Shown: positions 30,751-36,913, counted from the first letter of the stretch. The stretch is 64,000 nucleotides of DNA from a halophilic archaeon SHRA6 (GCA_005239175.1 ML241294.1:755275-819274); one strand, 5' to 3'. Notes: generated from the letters alone by a model not told the origin. Numbers and translations are program-made.

Positions 30751-30806
30751 TTTTTGACGTTTTCACTTTTTCAATTCTTCACTTCTTCACGTTTTCACTT
30801 TTCGAC
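30751..30806 (+). terminator. T-rich terminator region with GTTTTCACTTTT direct repeats
   Basis: Several T-runs occur within 56 bases after doxX, with CGTTTTCACTTTT present twice and CTTCAC-type units between them. T-rich tracts without hairpins are typical archaeal terminators. Confidence 0.6.
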
Positions 30807-30937
30807 GACATAGAAACCCGCTGTAGAGACATCGTCGTGACTCCGAACTCCGTGATTGCCCCAGAGCCGTCTGTCATCGGTGCAGTTGGCCGACCCAGAT
30901 GAGTTCGATCGGCATCTTCGCTCTATAGGTTGTTGAG

Positions 30938-31624
30938 CTACGAGAGACTCGAGTCAGAGACAGTTGGCGTCAACGATTTCAGCTTGAAATCTGATTTGCT
31001 ACAGTATTGTTCAGCAATAGATGCCAGTGCAGCAGTTCGGAGTATGTCGGCAATATTGTGCTGGAGGAGCTTCTCGAAGTCGCCAGCGTCGAATGCGTCA
31101 ACGGCCTGTTTGCTGTCTGCGAACGGATCAAGTGCTGTTAGTCCATCGCCGACGATCGTTTCGTACACCTGGGTGAGGTCAGCAGCTGATTCGTCACCGA
31201 CCTGCGTGTTGAAGCGGTGTTGAAAGATCGGCATGAGGTCCGCGTACGGAACATCAACGAATGGCCACTGAACGCCTTGTAGTGTATATCGGGTGCGAAG
31301 AAACGGCAGATCGAAGCCGCTTCGGAATCGTTCGCCGTTGTACGCAACGAGGAGATACTCCTTCGGAGTCAGGGATACAGCGGTGAACTCGGTGAAGGCT
31401 TCGAGAAGTCCTCGTTCTGTCTGGTGACAGCTCAACTTAACGGTCGTGTCGAACCGCTCCGCTAGCGCCGACACCACTGTCGGCTGTGCAACCGCTCGCT
31501 GATCGGTATTGAGCAGGACACGACAGCCAAGCGGGAGTACGATCCCGATCACGGTGACGACCGCATCGATCTCGAATCCCGAGGTTTCAATGTCGAATGC
31601 GACTGGTGTGAGTTTTTGTCCCAT
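30938..31624 (-). CDS. Stand-alone DEDDh 3'-5' exonuclease (PolB/DnaQ-type)
   Basis: A 228-residue RNase H-fold exonuclease. Exo I: VAFDIETSGFE (DxE at residues 11 and 13). Exo II: AYNGERFRSGFDLPFLRTRYTL (NxxxxxxxFD), as in B-family polymerase proofreading domains. Exo III: LLQHNIADILRTAAL (HxxxD, so DEDDh). The start MGQKLTPVAFDIETSGF at 31624 was chosen over the frame start at 31648. It diverges from orc1/cdc6. CGATCG is nearly absent and the codons look less GC-rich than in core neighbours. With the exonuclease-less PolB2 nearby it could supply proofreading or end-trimming in trans. That is inference. Confidence 0.82.
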   Translation of the reverse strand: MGQKLTPVAFDIETSGFEIDAVVTVIGIVLPLGCRVLLNTDQRAVAQPTVVSALAERFDTTVKLSCHQTERGLLEAFTEFTAVSLTPKEYLLVAYNGERFRSGFDLPFLRTRYTLQGVQWPFVDVPYADLMPIFQHRFNTQVGDESAADLTQVYETIVGDGLTALDPFADSKQAVDAFDAGDFEKLLQHNIADILRTAALASIAEQYCSKSDFKLKSLTPTVSDSSLS

Positions 31625-31673
31625 CGGTGGTGCTGAGGTATCGCGCACGTTCGTATCAGCGTATGCGTGCGCT

Positions 31674-31687
31674 TTCCGGAATTCCGG
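31674..31687. promoter_or_regulatory. TTCCGGAA palindrome upstream of exonuclease gene (candidate operator)
   Basis: CCGGAATTCCGG at 31676-31687 is a perfect 12-base palindrome and, shifted by two bases, gives TTCCGGAA at 31674-31681. It is 50-57 bases before the exonuclease ATG, just upstream of where the TATA box should be. The same 8-base core is at 33813-33820. Confidence 0.5.
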
Positions 31688-31734
31688 TTCGAAGGCGTAT
31701 CACTGTCAAAAAGCCAAAGAGGCCAAAAAGGCTG

Positions 31735-31770
31735 AAAAGCGGAAAAAGCGGAAAATGCCCACTTCCGCTT
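31735..31770. repeat. AGCGGAAA repeats with inverted copy upstream of orc1/cdc6
   Basis: AAAGCGGAAA occurs twice in tandem (about 31736-31754). AAGCGGAA at 31746-31753 is matched by the inverted TTCCGCTT at 31763-31770 with a 9-base gap. The preceding stretch (31707-31735) is an A/G-rich run. Direct and inverted repeats beside an orc1/cdc6 gene can be origin recognition boxes or an autoregulatory site. I cannot match them to the published haloarchaeal ORB consensus by eye. Confidence 0.5.
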
Positions 31771-31776
31771 ATTACC
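31767..31776 (+). promoter_or_regulatory. TATA-like element for orc1/cdc6
   Basis: GCTTATTACC lies 24-33 bases before the ATG at 31800 and overlaps the inverted TTCCGCTT half-site. Confidence 0.45.
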
Positions 31777-31799
31777 ATGGAGCGTAAACACACCCAGCA

Positions 31800-32804
31800 A
31801 TGATTCGGGATGCGCGTGTCTTGCGGGCAGACTTCGTCCCCAAAGAGATCGTCCACCGTGATCCCGAAGCGACCCAGCTTTCGAACGCGCTGGAACCGAT
31901 CACCCGCGACGAGCCGGCGGAAACAGCGTTCCTCTTTGGTCCATCAGGGACCGGGAAAACCTGCCTGGCAAAGTGTATGCTCGAACGGCTTCGTCGGGAA
32001 GTCATCAACATCGAACACCAGTACGTCAACTGCTGGCAGAACTACACCCGCTTTCGGACCATCTACCGGATCTTAGAGGGGATCGGCCAGACACTCGATG
32101 TCCACCGGCAATCGACCCCGAAAGACGAGCTGCTTGAACGACTCCGACAGTACGACGGCCCGCCGTACGTCGTCATCCTCGATGAGGTCGATCAGCTTGA
32201 GGATATGAATGTCCTCTACGACCTGTACACCCTGTCGAACATCTCGATGGTGCTCATCGCAAATCGTGAAGAAGAGCTGTTCGCCCGGATCGACGAACGA
32301 CTCGCGAGCCGGCTGATGAACAGCACGCGCATCCAGTTCGACAAGTACGGCACCGACGAGCTAGTGGCGATCCTGCAGGCTCGCGTCGATCGCGGCCTCG
32401 CTGCCGATGCGATCGACCACGCACAACTCGAACGAATCGCTGACGCCGCAGCCGGTGACGCCCGCGTGGCGATCGGCATTCTCCGGAACGCCGCCCAGCA
32501 GGCCGAACGAGACAACGCTGATCAGATCACCCACGGGGCGATCACGGACGCGATCCCAGACGCCAGAGCAGAGGTCCAACAGCGGACCGTCGAAACACTA
32601 ACGCCGCATCAACAGCAGCTGTACGAGATCATAACCGAAAACGGCAGTATTCCACCGGGAGCACTGTACGAACGGTACTGCGAGCAGGTCGAGGAGCCGA
32701 AGACAAAGCGCACAATTCGGAATTACCTCTCGAAGCTGTGTCAGTACAACCTCATCGTCGCTGACGGCGAGAACCGCGGGCGCACATATCGGCCGATTTC
32801 GTGA
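31800..32804 (+). CDS. Orc1/Cdc6-family replication initiator protein
   Basis: A 334-residue AAA+ ATPase. Walker A GPSGTGKT at residues 47-54, Walker B VVILDEVDQL at about 124-133, sensor 1 ISMVLIANREEE, arginine-finger region RIDERLASRLMNSTRIQF, sensor 2-type GDARVAIGILRNAAQQAE. A C-terminal winged helix (ETLTPHQQQLYEIITENGSIPPGALYERY...TIRNYLSKLCQYNLIV) binds DNA. It is shorter than typical 400-residue initiators and belongs with the accessory orc paralogues haloarchaea carry in numbers. It sits in a module with an exonuclease and PolB2. The local origin, if any, would be the repeat region upstream. Confidence 0.92.
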   Translation: MIRDARVLRADFVPKEIVHRDPEATQLSNALEPITRDEPAETAFLFGPSGTGKTCLAKCMLERLRREVINIEHQYVNCWQNYTRFRTIYRILEGIGQTLDVHRQSTPKDELLERLRQYDGPPYVVILDEVDQLEDMNVLYDLYTLSNISMVLIANREEELFARIDERLASRLMNSTRIQFDKYGTDELVAILQARVDRGLAADAIDHAQLERIADAAAGDARVAIGILRNAAQQAERDNADQITHGAITDAIPDARAEVQQRTVETLTPHQQQLYEIITENGSIPPGALYERYCEQVEEPKTKRTIRNYLSKLCQYNLIVADGENRGRTYRPIS

Positions 32805-32861
32805 TAGCCAGCGCAGCAACAGTCTACCACCAAAATCCGTAGAGAGCCAAGAGAACCCGCG

Positions 32862-33251
32862 TTACGCGCTGGGAACGACGGTTACCGAGAGCGATCGGTC
32901 ACGGGGGCCGTCGCACTCAATGAGGAGAATTGACTGCCACGTGCCCAGTGCGAGCTCACCATCACGAACGGGGATTGAGACGCTTCGCCCGAGGAGGGAC
33001 GTACGAAGATGTGCGTCAGCATTCCCGTCAAGCTCGTCGTGCGCCCACCCATCAGGCGCTGCGAGCGTTTCGACGAACTGTGCAATATCCTCGATTAAGC
33101 GCGGTTCGGCCTCGTTGATCGAAACAGCCGCAGTCGTGTGGTTGACAAATACGGTACAGACGCCACTCGCAATCCCGGACACATCCGCAGCGACCTGATC
33201 AGTCACATCGACAACATCGATCGGGCCGTCCGTTTCAACGTGGATCGACAT
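32862..33251 (-). CDS. YjbQ/UPF0047 family protein
   Basis: A 129-residue YjbQ-family protein: MSIHVETDGPIDVVDVTDQVAADVSGIASGVCTVFVNHTTAAVSINEAEPRLIEDIAQF...HDELDGNADAHLRTSLLGRSVSIPVRDGELALGTWQSILLIECDGPRDRSLSV. The conserved NHTTA, HLRTSLLG and LGTWQ blocks are present. Bacterial members have weak thiamine-phosphate synthase activity; the true role is unsettled. The ATG at 33249-33251 is used, since the upstream 31 codons run into a promoter-like AT-rich zone. It separates orc1/cdc6 from the HalOD1 gene. Confidence 0.9.
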   Translation of the reverse strand: MSIHVETDGPIDVVDVTDQVAADVSGIASGVCTVFVNHTTAAVSINEAEPRLIEDIAQFVETLAAPDGWAHDELDGNADAHLRTSLLGRSVSIPVRDGELALGTWQSILLIECDGPRDRSLSVTVVPSA

Positions 33252-33400
33252 ACGTCGATGATTAGCGTTTGCGCCCTTCAGTTGTTCGGCATCTGCGGGA
33301 TGTATACTGCACCAGTTTGTCGAACTGATGGAAGTGGTTATCAAAAGTGTAGGATTTTTGATTAGTCATTTTAATATTAGTGTACTGTGTAGCAACAGCA

Positions 33401-33727
33401 ATGGCGGCTACCGATCTAGCGGTGTACCGAGAGTGTCCACCGGTTGTAGATACTGTATTCACAGTGGAACCCGATCAATCGCCGGTTGAAGCAATCGTTG
33501 AGGCGATGACAGCAGCTACCGACGTTAATCCGTTGGAGACGACTCCCTTGTACGAGTATGTCGACGCTGACGCGTTGAACAGTCTGTTTCATCATGACGG
33601 ATCCGAAAACGCTGAAATACTACTTCATTTCCAGATCGAAACATGGAAGATATTTTTCCGGACTGACGGAAGGATACGCGTCTGTGATGCGACGCAGACA
33701 ACAAGTCCGGAACCAGTCTTTGAGTAA
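33401..33727 (+). CDS. HalOD1 output-domain protein
   Basis: A 108-residue protein consisting of one HalOD1 domain (haloarchaeal signalling output): PVEAIVEAMTAATDVNPLETTPLYEYVDADALNSLFHHDGSENAEILLHFQIETWKIFFRTDGRIRVCD. Start MAATDLAVYREC at 33401, 24-33 bases after the AT-rich TTTTAATATTAG. Many haloarchaea have dozens of such stand-alone HalOD1 genes with unknown partners. It is upstream of the RecA-like/PolB2 operon, with a 137-base gap. Confidence 0.85.
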   Translation: MAATDLAVYRECPPVVDTVFTVEPDQSPVEAIVEAMTAATDVNPLETTPLYEYVDADALNSLFHHDGSENAEILLHFQIETWKIFFRTDGRIRVCDATQTTSPEPVFE

Positions 33728-33812
33728 ACCACGAGCTATTCAAGCAGATAGCGTCCGTGATTTTTGATTCCCAGCAGGATCGCAACGAGCTCGCAAAGTG
33801 AAGAATCGGAAG

Positions 33813-33820
33813 TTCCGGAA
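33813..33820. promoter_or_regulatory. TTCCGGAA palindrome upstream of RecA-like/polB2 operon (candidate operator)
   Basis: The palindrome extends to GTTCCGGAAC (33812-33821). It is 45-52 bases before the ATG at 33865 and about 14 bases upstream of a TATA-like CTTATT at 33834-33839. It matches the core upstream of the exonuclease gene. Confidence 0.5.
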
Positions 33821-33864
33821 CCCACGCGCCACGGCTTATTCCGCAGGTCTGTCTCTACCGGTAT

Positions 33865-34545
33865 ATGGAGCCAAGCACTGCCACGCAAGTACCACCGACA
33901 CTGCCGTCGCTCAGTACCGACTGCTACGTACTCGAAACAGACGACACGCCGATCGGCCCGTTACAGGCGCTCGTCGTTGATCACCTGTTGATGAATGAGC
34001 ACACCGCGTACTGGGTTGATGCTGCCGGGCACGCACGAACAGACACGCTGGCCCGCATCGCCCCGAGCACGCGGCTGCTGGATCGGATTCAGGTCGCCCG
34101 CGGCTTCACCGCCTGTCAACACGCGGCGCTCATTGACCGTGTCAGCGATCGACTCACAGCGGACACACCACTCGTTGTCGTCCCGGCGATCGATGCGATG
34201 TACCGCGCCGAGGATAGCCACGGCGTAGATGCCGAGCGACTATTCCGATCGGCGGTTTCAACACTCACCACGCGGTGTCGTGCGTCCGATACCCCACTCC
34301 TCGTGACCTGCCAGCGTCAAGATGAACTCACGGCACCGCTTGCCCGCCACGTTGACGAGACGCTTCGGTGTGAGACCACACGGTTTGGCCCTCGATTCGT
34401 CAGCGATCGCTTCGAAACGCTAGTGTACCCACGCACCGACGGGACCGTCCAGACGACGATCGCGTTCTGGGCGCACGTCCTCACCCAGCGGGCAACTGTC
34501 GCAGCGACCGGTCAGCAGGAGGTGTTGGTCCATGGGTCGAACTAA
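33865..34545 (+). CDS. RecA-fold protein lacking the Walker A P-loop
   Basis: A 226-residue protein. The order of secondary-structure-like blocks follows RadA/RadB: TAYWVDAAGHARTDTLARIAPSTRLLDRIQVARGFTACQHAALIDRV (equivalent to the post-P-loop strand and the ...VARAYN... segment), LVVVPAIDAMYR (Walker B position), LLVTCQRQDELTAPLARHVDETLRCE (the strand with conserved Gln, then an Asn/Asp-rich loop), and a final FETLVYPRTDGTVQTTIAFW. No GxxxxGKT is present before residue 60, so ATP binding is doubtful. It overlaps the next gene by 14 bases and heads the polB2 operon. It may be a structural or regulatory partner of the polymerase. Confidence 0.7.
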   Translation: MEPSTATQVPPTLPSLSTDCYVLETDDTPIGPLQALVVDHLLMNEHTAYWVDAAGHARTDTLARIAPSTRLLDRIQVARGFTACQHAALIDRVSDRLTADTPLVVVPAIDAMYRAEDSHGVDAERLFRSAVSTLTTRCRASDTPLLVTCQRQDELTAPLARHVDETLRCETTRFGPRFVSDRFETLVYPRTDGTVQTTIAFWAHVLTQRATVAATGQQEVLVHGSN

Positions 34546-34807
34546 TCCAACCTACCGAGACGCGATTCGGGTAGTAGAACGCCGCTGGGAGGATTTCAAA
34601 CGCCCTCTCCGACGCCGCGACCAACCACGATTTGAGCGGCTGTTCGAATACGCACACGCCCACGCCGATGCCGGTGGATATCTGAATCACGACGAACCGC
34701 TGTTTCCGATACTGGTCGCTGTCGATCTCGAACAGGAGAGACGGCTCGACGAACTCGAAGACCGCATCGCCACCGTAGAAACAGCGCTCGAATCCAACCG
34801 CGAGTAG
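34532..34807 (+). CDS. Small conserved protein co-encoded with PolB2
   Basis: A 91-residue helical protein: MGRTNPTYRDAIRVVERRWEDFKRPLRRRDQPRFERLFEYAHAHADAGGYLNHDEPLFPILVAVDLEQERRLDELEDRIATVETALESN. The N-terminal basic helices could bind nucleic acid and the C-terminal part is coiled-coil-like. I recall similar proteins in other haloarchaea (possibly DUF8156), annotated only as hypothetical. It overlaps the RecA-like gene (34532-34545) and ends 9 bases before polB2, so all three are one translationally coupled unit. Confidence 0.8.
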   Translation: MGRTNPTYRDAIRVVERRWEDFKRPLRRRDQPRFERLFEYAHAHADAGGYLNHDEPLFPILVAVDLEQERRLDELEDRIATVETALESNRE

Positions 34808-34816
34808 CCGATTCCC

Positions 34817-36913
34817 ATGCCGTACAAATTCGATTACCACGATGGAGACGTTGTGGCGTGGACAGCGACCGACGACGGCGCAACCGCAACGCGAATCGAC
34901 GGATACACGCCGACAATCTACGTCGGGGCGGATGAACACGACCACTTGGCAACCGCCAAACAGCATATTGCTGAACTCCCTGCAGTCACTCGGACGACGG
35001 TTGAGCAGTGGCGGACTGGGTTTCGACACGACGCCGAGGCTGTGGTTCGGGTCGATATCCAGCACATTGATGCGGTCCCCGATGTTGCCAGCACGATCGC
35101 CGGATGGGGCACGCCCGGGACGTACCGGTTGTACAACGTCGATCTCACGCGTGAGTTCCGCGTCTGTCTCGAAGCCGGACATGATCCGGTGCCTGCCCGG
35201 CCGTTACGAACCGTTTCAATCGACGCGCCTCCAGCCCACCGCGCCCGTGAGGACCTGGAAACAATAACCATCGATGGCGTCACGGTCGAGGGCGAGACAG
35301 CAATCCTCGAAACGATCGCCGAACGGCTCGAGACGATCGACCCGGACGTGCTCAGTCTCTCATCGAGCCGGCTCATCCCGCAGCTGTACGAGATGGCCGA
35401 CCAGTGTGGCATGGCAGCGTTCGATCTCGGTCGCCTATCAGGGTACGAACAGCTGGCCGGGCGATCGACGTACGAAAGCTACGGGCAAGTCGGGCACTCG
35501 CCCGCCCGCTACAACGTACCTGGTCGGGTGATCGTCGATCGATCAAACACGTTCATGTGGAGTGAGACGAACCTCGAGGGGTGTCTGTACTTGATTGAAC
35601 AGTCGGGACTTCCGCTGCAAGAGTTGGCGTGGGCGAGCATCGGGCGGATTCTGACAGCCATACAGATCAGTCATGCTCGCGATCGGAGCGTCTTGGTGCC
35701 GTGGCAGTCCTGGCGTCACGAGCGCTTCAAATCGATGCGGCAACTCAACGACGCTGACCGCGGCGGCTTCACGTTCGCTCCAGATGTTGGGCGCTGTGAA
35801 GACGTCCACGAACTCGATTTTTCGAGTCTGTATCCGAATATCATTGTCACCCGGAACGTGAGCCCGGAAACAGTCCGGTGTGAGTGCCATCCCGATCGTG
35901 CGGACGTCCCTGGTCTCGACTACAGCATCTGCCCAGAGCCGGGGTATCTCCCCGACGTGCTGGAACCGCTCATCGAAGATCGGGATGCGATCAAGCGGGA
36001 ACGCCGCGAGACGGACGATCCAAAACGGCGTGCTGCGCTCAACGGCCAATCAAGCGCAATCAAGTGGGTTCTTGTCTCTTGTTTCGGCTATCAGGGCTTC
36101 TCGAACGCGAAATTCGGCCGGATCGAATGCCACGAAGCGATCAACGCGTTTGCCCGTGAGATCCTGCTTGAGGCGAAAACCATCCTGGAGTCGAACGGCT
36201 GGCAGGTCGTCCACGGGATCGTAGACAGTCTCTGGGTGACGCCACAGCCAGATGCCAGCCAGACGCCGATCGACACGCTTTGTGAGCGGGTTACTGACGC
36301 GTCGGGCATTCGATTAGAGCATGAAACCGCCTACGACTGGGTCGCATTTGTGCCGCAGCGCCACAGCAATACCGGTGCGCTGACGAAATATTTCGGTCGA
36401 TCGACTGACGGCGAGTACAAGTATCGCGGCATCGAGTGTCGCCAGCGAAGCACGCCGGCGTTCGTCAAAGACACCCAACGAGCGCTCATCAAGACACTTG
36501 CTGAACACGAATCCCCAGAGCGTGTCTGTGAACTGCTGTCCGCACGGCTCGATGAGCTTCGATCGGGAGCAGTTCCAACAGACGAGTTGTGTGTGACGAT
36601 TCGCGTCTCAAAGTCTGCAGAGGCGTATACACGGAACACGCGCGTCGCTGCGGCAACCGCTCGCGCAACGCAGTTAGGCTGTCGAAAATACCCCGGCGAG
36701 CAGGTCTCATTTGTCGTCGTTGACGATGAGGTATCGACCATCGATCGCGTTCGACTGGCGTTCGAACAGCCCGATACGTACGATCCGGCGTTCTATGCGA
36801 CCCAACTGTATCGGGCTGCAGAAAGTGTCCTCTCGCCGCTGGGGTGGAGCGAGGAACAGATCCGTTCGTATCTCTCCGATCGGACGGACACGAGCCTCAT
36901 TCGATACCAGTGA
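34817..36913 (+). CDS. polB2: B-family DNA polymerase, PolB2 type, with altered catalytic motifs
   Basis: A 698-residue B-family polymerase. Motif A is intact: HELDFSSLYPNIIVTRN (D334, SLYP 337-340). Motif B is SSAIKWVLVSCFGYQG, with Lys416 kept but the usual N-S-x-Y-G read as SCFGY. Motif C reads HGIVDSLW (466-473) where canonical polymerases have Y-G-D-T-D-S, so the first metal-binding Asp is Ile468 while Asp470 is kept. No Exo I DxE is seen (closest is SIDAPPAH at 134-141), so proofreading is probably lost. Archaeal PolB2 proteins are known for such degenerate motifs; some have been reported active in lesion bypass or extension. It is the last gene of the operon with the RecA-like and small proteins. 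Confidence 0.92.
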   Translation: MPYKFDYHDGDVVAWTATDDGATATRIDGYTPTIYVGADEHDHLATAKQHIAELPAVTRTTVEQWRTGFRHDAEAVVRVDIQHIDAVPDVASTIAGWGTPGTYRLYNVDLTREFRVCLEAGHDPVPARPLRTVSIDAPPAHRAREDLETITIDGVTVEGETAILETIAERLETIDPDVLSLSSSRLIPQLYEMADQCGMAAFDLGRLSGYEQLAGRSTYESYGQVGHSPARYNVPGRVIVDRSNTFMWSETNLEGCLYLIEQSGLPLQELAWASIGRILTAIQISHARDRSVLVPWQSWRHERFKSMRQLNDADRGGFTFAPDVGRCEDVHELDFSSLYPNIIVTRNVSPETVRCECHPDRADVPGLDYSICPEPGYLPDVLEPLIEDRDAIKRERRETDDPKRRAALNGQSSAIKWVLVSCFGYQGFSNAKFGRIECHEAINAFAREILLEAKTILESNGWQVVHGIVDSLWVTPQPDASQTPIDTLCERVTDASGIRLEHETAYDWVAFVPQRHSNTGALTKYFGRSTDGEYKYRGIECRQRSTPAFVKDTQRALIKTLAEHESPERVCELLSARLDELRSGAVPTDELCVTIRVSKSAEAYTRNTRVAAATARATQLGCRKYPGEQVSFVVVDDEVSTIDRVRLAFEQPDTYDPAFYATQLYRAAESVLSPLGWSEEQIRSYLSDRTDTSLIRYQ

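Follow-up and report, generated by a model that had tools for sequence, protein, structure and literature searches.

Five genes at a haloarchaeal locus, arranged in three transcription units, share a promoter element of the form CGGAA-N3/4-CGGAA, which suggests that their expression is turned on jointly, in all probability through the Orc1/Cdc6 paralogue that one of them encodes. The locus lies in a stretch of 64,000 nucleotides from the halophilic archaeon SHRA6 (the window), and its units are a gene for a free-standing exonuclease (exo), a divergent orc1/cdc6 gene and the iRadA-PPB2-PolB2 operon (Table 1). On balance, we favor the reading that they form a local, Orc-controlled and SOS-like regulon made up of orc, the mutasome operon and the exonuclease gene. 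The iRadA-PPB2-PolB2 mutasome and the presence of an Orc gene near polB2 are already known. The association with the exonuclease and the promoter element common to the three units appear to be unreported, as we found no publication on them, with a mention of the exonuclease being possible in the supplements of PMC11791011 or in the HRAMP paper PMC6702361.

Table 1. Genes and promoter features of the locus in window coordinates (L numbers denote other loci in this study)
Feature	Position	Strand	Evidence and remarks
exo, open reading frame	30938-31648	-	open reading frame; position confirmed
exo, likely coding extent	30938..31624	-	likely start ATG 31624 (MGQKLTP), matching the starts of relatives
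Box 1, CGGAATTCCGGAA	31674..31686	-	62 nt before exo ATG; same in L086, L018, L065, L170
Box 2, CGGAAAAAGCGGAA	31740..31753	+	60 nt before orc ATG
TATA-like CTTATTAC, putative orc promoter	31768..31775	+	sequence reading; position conserved in relatives
orc1/cdc6, polB2-linked subfamily, proposed regulator	31800..32804	+	TIGR02928, Walker A, PDB Cdc6/Orc1 matches
YjbQ/UPF0047, apparent passenger	32862..33344	-	family match
HalOD1 protein, apparent passenger	33380..33727	+	family match
Box 3, CGGAAGTTCCGGAA	33807..33820	+	58 nt before iRadA ATG; 20.7 bits
TATA-like CTTATTCC, putative iRadA-PPB2-PolB2 promoter	33835..33842	+	sequence reading
iRadA, Rad51/RadA fold without P-loop	33865..34545	+	family matches, motif check, model
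PPB2 (arCOG07300-like), 91 aa	34532..34807	+	ORF, tblastn, MGRT arm as in PMC11791011
PolB2	34817..36913	+	NF004418, motif check

An earlier sequence-only reading of this DNA had given the gene order, positions and orientations, and all of its open reading frames proved to be real and located where it had placed them; the overlap it reported between the RecA-like (iRadA) and 91-residue (PPB2) genes at 34532-34545 was likewise confirmed. The genes iRadA, PPB2 and polB2 are adjacent on one strand in the published order (33865-36913). PolB2 was recovered with the NCBIfam profile NF004418 (E 3e-297), and displays the motif A DFSSLYP, an IVD in place of the DxD of motif C and the DR motif, while a profile search detected neither PF03104 nor any other exonuclease domain in the window's protein. 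The profile matches of iRadA are weak (RadB/Rad51, 6e-5 and 3e-3), its predicted model best matches RAD51/DMC1/RadA chains, and a motif check found GxxxxGK[ST] to be absent, pointing to a RadA fold devoid of the ATPase motif. PPB2 begins with MGRTNPTY, and so possesses the N-terminal MGRT arm. This operon was described by Makarova et al. in 2014, with arORC2 as a frequent neighbor (PMC4104785), and Timinskas et al. in 2025 introduced the name PPB2, drew attention to the protein's MGRT arm and to a D(K/R) motif in PolB2, presented a model of a heteropentamer and noted that orc1/cdc6, SRAP and DUF72 genes occur nearby (PMC11791011). Hence, the claim in the sequence-only reading that no description of the set had been published does not hold for iRadA-PPB2-PolB2 with Orc nearby. 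Judging by the shared order of the trio, the MGRT arm, the IVD for DxD, the D(K/R) motif, the inactive RadA and the nearby Orc1/Cdc6, the window's trio is almost certainly a copy of the known translesion mutasome, beyond which the window has a free-standing exonuclease of the PolB type and one promoter element common to three units.

Relatives of PolB2 were detected in 256 of the 391 haloarchaeal genomes searched. tblastn searches of 80 haloarchaeal polB2 neighborhoods, a non-random sample in which priority went to the loci of highest similarity and one batch had been enriched for linkage to exo, recovered iRadA in 78 and PPB2 in 79. The sequence-only reading had proposed a conserved gene set, to be seen in a comparison of polB2 neighborhoods, and this is borne out by these counts, by a linked Orc at 58 loci and by exonuclease linkage above chance. 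Pfam and NCBIfam profiles additionally identified UPF0047/YjbQ, HalOD1 and an RNase_H_2 / PolB-exo-like nuclease. The YjbQ and HalOD1 genes look like passengers, as had been supposed, because copies of them are not interposed in other polB2 loci and neither is preceded by the box.

The pattern CGGAA-N3/4-CGGAA occurs exactly three times in the window, once per transcription unit, as against 27 occurrences genome-wide; the probability of the three units acquiring it by chance 58-62 nt before their start codons is about 3e-10. The shared upstream palindromes noticed in the sequence-only reading are therefore real. From 46 non-redundant orc upstream regions we derived the motif GAAGTTCCGGAAACGACCCGGT, which nearly always lies 54-66 nt 5' of the ATG and directly precedes a TATA-like stretch; the short distance between box and ATG suggests that the transcripts are leaderless. 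At a threshold of at least 9 bits the motif precedes 55 of the 61 orthologous orc genes, compared to none of the 23 genes for other Orcs and 4 of 1,544 genes of other kinds. As it was trained on orc promoters, that set taken alone is circular, and the independent sets are the upstream regions of iRadA and exo. The box is present in 45 of 76 iRadA upstream regions (Fisher p 3e-62, with related genomes treated as independent), and also stands before the exo genes that have their own promoter, in the window, L086, L018, L065 and L170, and at -177 in L007. Furthermore, the orc and iRadA boxes of the same locus differ on average at 5.1 of 14 nt, compared to 6.2 for permuted pairs (0 of 2000 permutations as low), with CGGCA seen in both promoters of L102 and TGGCA in both of L052. 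A stricter version of the pattern yielded 49 matches in 54 genomes and none with a reversed control. Several of the off-locus matches that were read fall within coding sequence; others lie 57-59 nt before the starts of a second iRadA-PPB2-PolB2 operon (L187) and an unlinked orc gene (L188). We have very little doubt that this is a genuine element common to these promoters.

Certain other candidates were considered and set aside. A wider box regulon in the window's genome is unsupported, the sole other strong match (L119) being within coding sequence. The published UV motif TTTCACTTTCA (PMC2556686) was rejected as the shared element, since the boxes differ from it. Runs of repeated TTTTCACTTTT / CTTCAC between convergent genes at 30755-30810 of the window do resemble that motif and are not promoter-positioned. 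SRAP was rejected as a further box-bearing member, with the box in 0 of 15 SRAP promoters. Many plasmid-type loci (L042-L058 and others) do carry the gene for this abasic-site protein in the interval from orc to iRadA, in the reverse orientation to these two.

The window's Orc is an intact member of its family (TIGR02928, E 3e-60; Walker A GPSGTGKT; matches to PDB Cdc6/Orc1 structures), and is only 29-32% identical to the other Orcs of its genome. It belongs to a single subfamily that is encoded at 58 polB2 loci, mostly with 50-93% identity to the window's protein and usually upstream on the same strand, while most of the remaining Orcs at polB2 loci show about 23-30% identity. In its sequence the box resembles an Orc-binding (ORB) element minus the G-string: one published haloarchaeal ORB has CGGAAAC followed by a G-string (PMC3528665). 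This likeness, the intact AAA+ initiator homologue, the tendency of haloarchaeal origins to adjoin orc genes and the residence of many polB2 loci on small replicons could together be explained if the boxes were origin recognition elements and if replication of an integrated element or plasmid started, or once started, at this locus; Orc would then act as the initiator, with PolB2 and the nuclease in accessory replication roles. We consider this very unlikely, given that the element stands at a fixed distance of 55-66 nt from start codons in dozens of loci, including those of iRadA, exo and unlinked genes, that the two intergenic stretches flanking orc contain no run of four or more G or C as expected of inverted ORB repeats that carry a G-string and enclose an AT-rich stretch, and that the other Orcs at these loci lack the element (0/23). 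Replication of an integrated element, which the sequence-only reading had offered as one role for the set, is likewise disfavored by the fixed promoter distance, the missing G-string and the absence of an origin-like arrangement. Since the box combines an ORB core, without the G-string, with a fixed promoter distance, we think it most likely that the Orc1/Cdc6 paralogue linked to polB2 regulates transcription and does not initiate replication at origins.

There is a precedent for such a role in Saccharolobus, where Orc1-2 activates Dpo2/PolB2 (PMC9738581). The two systems resemble each other in having an Orc1/Cdc6 paralogue beside a PolB2 system and a common element that is also found in the paralogue's own promoter. 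They differ in that the haloarchaeal element is CGGAA-N3/4-CGGAA rather than ANTTTC (DDRE), and in that the putative haloarchaeal regulon is confined to one locus in the window's genome. The linked Orc is, to us, the probable binder of the box. A different, unlinked regulator could instead bind it, with Orc merely one target among others, as are LexA-regulated genes in bacteria; the linked Orc is a candidate binder, and would be a target in either case. This we regard as unlikely, because the linked Orc is a constant companion of the system, the box variants change together within a locus, and the ORB-like core and the Sulfolobus precedent both point to an Orc protein.

The exonuclease displays five residues, D11, E13, D105, H189 and D193, that are invariant in the alignment of its homologues. 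Its third motif is HxxxD and not the HxxxxD of textbook DEDDh enzymes, with H189 taking the place where a tyrosine is expected in the PolB type. Of the earlier description the reading frame stands, whereas the 5' end at 31648 was corrected to the more likely ATG at 31624 and the assignment as a textbook DEDDh enzyme was dropped. A sequence-profile search against the PDB gave no match, and matches came from the fold search alone: the predicted model (pLDDT 91) best matches the exonuclease domains of family-B polymerases (Foldseek E 3.5e-8, TM 0.65; Z 18-20). Given these PolB-type fold matches, the predicted protein is a free-standing PolB-type DEDD 3'-5' exonuclease.

Homologues of exo were found in 103 of the 391 haloarchaeal genomes, and 43 of their 131 places are within 10 kb of polB2, where about 1 would be expected by chance; 41 of these are on the same strand and 40 are upstream. 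The linkage anticipated in the sequence-only reading is therefore far above chance, but most polB2 loci lack exo, which is a minority partner linked to polB2 in about 41 of the 256 genomes that have the polymerase. The linked loci, some of which are known by position only, display at least four gene arrangements, namely exo divergent from orc (the window, L086), iRadA-EXO-PPB2-PolB2 (L027), iRadA-PPB2-EXO-PolB2 with or without inserts (L044, L049-L051, L054, L055, L060, L064), and PolB2 followed by orc and exo (L007, L018, L065). L170 has a divergent orc-exo pair and no polB2 within the stretch examined.

A second context of the family is provided by an operon of the form c11-c6-c8-c7-EXO-HNH (L066-L084, L132-L166), which accounts for 43 of the 73 exo homologues at the loci examined and for the majority of those remote from polB2. 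It encodes RAMP-like proteins, one of them a Cmr3 match (7e-5), and an HNH protein, and by its sequence content is consistent with HRAMP, the CRISPR-derived haloarchaeal system (PMC8730458). This prevalence, and the presence of many polB2-linked copies on plasmid-like contigs, would be explained if exo were an independent defense or mobile-element nuclease that repeatedly landed near polB2 on plasmids and did no joint work with PolB2. We find this rather doubtful. In the phylogenetic tree the 43 HRAMP-linked proteins form a single clade (100/99), and the polB2-linked ones fall outside it in two groups. The box stands before the polB2/Orc-linked copies that have their own promoter, as against 0 of the 43 HRAMP-linked copies. 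The linkage survives at least four gene orders, and distances between exo proteins rise and fall with those for PolB2, iRadA and Orc (r 0.87-0.91; 0 of 2000 permutations as high), in line with co-inheritance. The window locus and HRAMP both have a member of this exonuclease family, but the window locus lacks the RAMP-like (Cas5/Cas7-like) and HNH genes, and proteins encoded around the window's exo gave no match to reference HRAMP-like proteins.

In the mechanism that we propose, the linked Orc would bind the ORB-like box that immediately precedes the TATA region and, upon DNA damage, would regulate orc itself, the mutasome operon and the divergently oriented exo gene, in the manner in which Saccharolobus Orc1-2 controls Dpo2/PolB2. 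By this analogy, damage inducibility of the regulon seems to us the better supposition. PolB2, once made, would extend damaged or mismatched primer ends; the Dpo2 enzyme of the Sulfolobales can elongate ends that are mismatched and is devoid of 3'-5' exonuclease activity (PMC8764526). The co-regulated exonuclease would probably trim or proofread 3' ends in trans, as may be conjectured from its fold, the shared promoter element and the proofreading domain missing from PolB2. This is the least certain step of the mechanism, and we put forward the joint action of the exonuclease and PolB2 tentatively. In the published UV arrays of Halobacterium NRC-1, polB2 and orc were not among the genes reported, as far as these were accessible to us; the polB2 gene of its plasmid pNRC200 (L206) is an orphan beside an IS200/IS605 transposase with no iRadA or PPB2 annotated adjacent to it, and these data are consequently uninformative as a test.

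The arrangement is reminiscent of the SOS mutasome cassettes of bacteria (Pol V; lexA next to the bacterial polB2), in which a regulator, an error-prone polymerase and a RecA-fold partner are placed under one operator. The likeness is an analogy only, as the polymerase (Pol V) and regulator families are unrelated. A haloarchaeal counterpart of the LexA or Sulfolobus Orc1-2 regulon for PolB2 was not described in the literature that we searched. Because a sharp promoter element here has a candidate binder encoded beside it, the control of error-prone synthesis in euryarchaea becomes directly testable. The apparent co-regulation of a PolB-type exonuclease with a neighboring polymerase in which no exonuclease domain can be detected also raises the testable question of whether a mutasome can have a separable proofreader. 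If our reading is true, a homologue of replication initiators regulates PolB2 in both Sulfolobales and haloarchaea.

More speculatively, and with somewhat less conviction than for the local regulon, a haloarchaeal SOS-like regulon can be envisaged in which a repurposed Orc1/Cdc6, by way of an ORB-derived CGGAA box placed directly before the promoter, would govern its own gene, the mutasome and a trans-proofreading exonuclease. In some genomes this regulon would also have taken in a cassette with an integrase, a protein of the HNH type and a further kind of exonuclease. Among the off-locus matches, a box at position 1500 of L186, on the reverse strand, lies 58 nt upstream of the start of a 253-aa RNase_H_2-type exonuclease that belongs to a different family, and another 59 nt upstream of the start of a 270-aa HNH protein (L195). 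In L190 and L191 the box precedes a leader ORF of 14-15 aa, followed by a zinc-ribbon ORF and an integrase, with similar leaders in L175 and L200; the combination of box, leader and integrase might possibly reflect a damage-linked induction of a mobile element.
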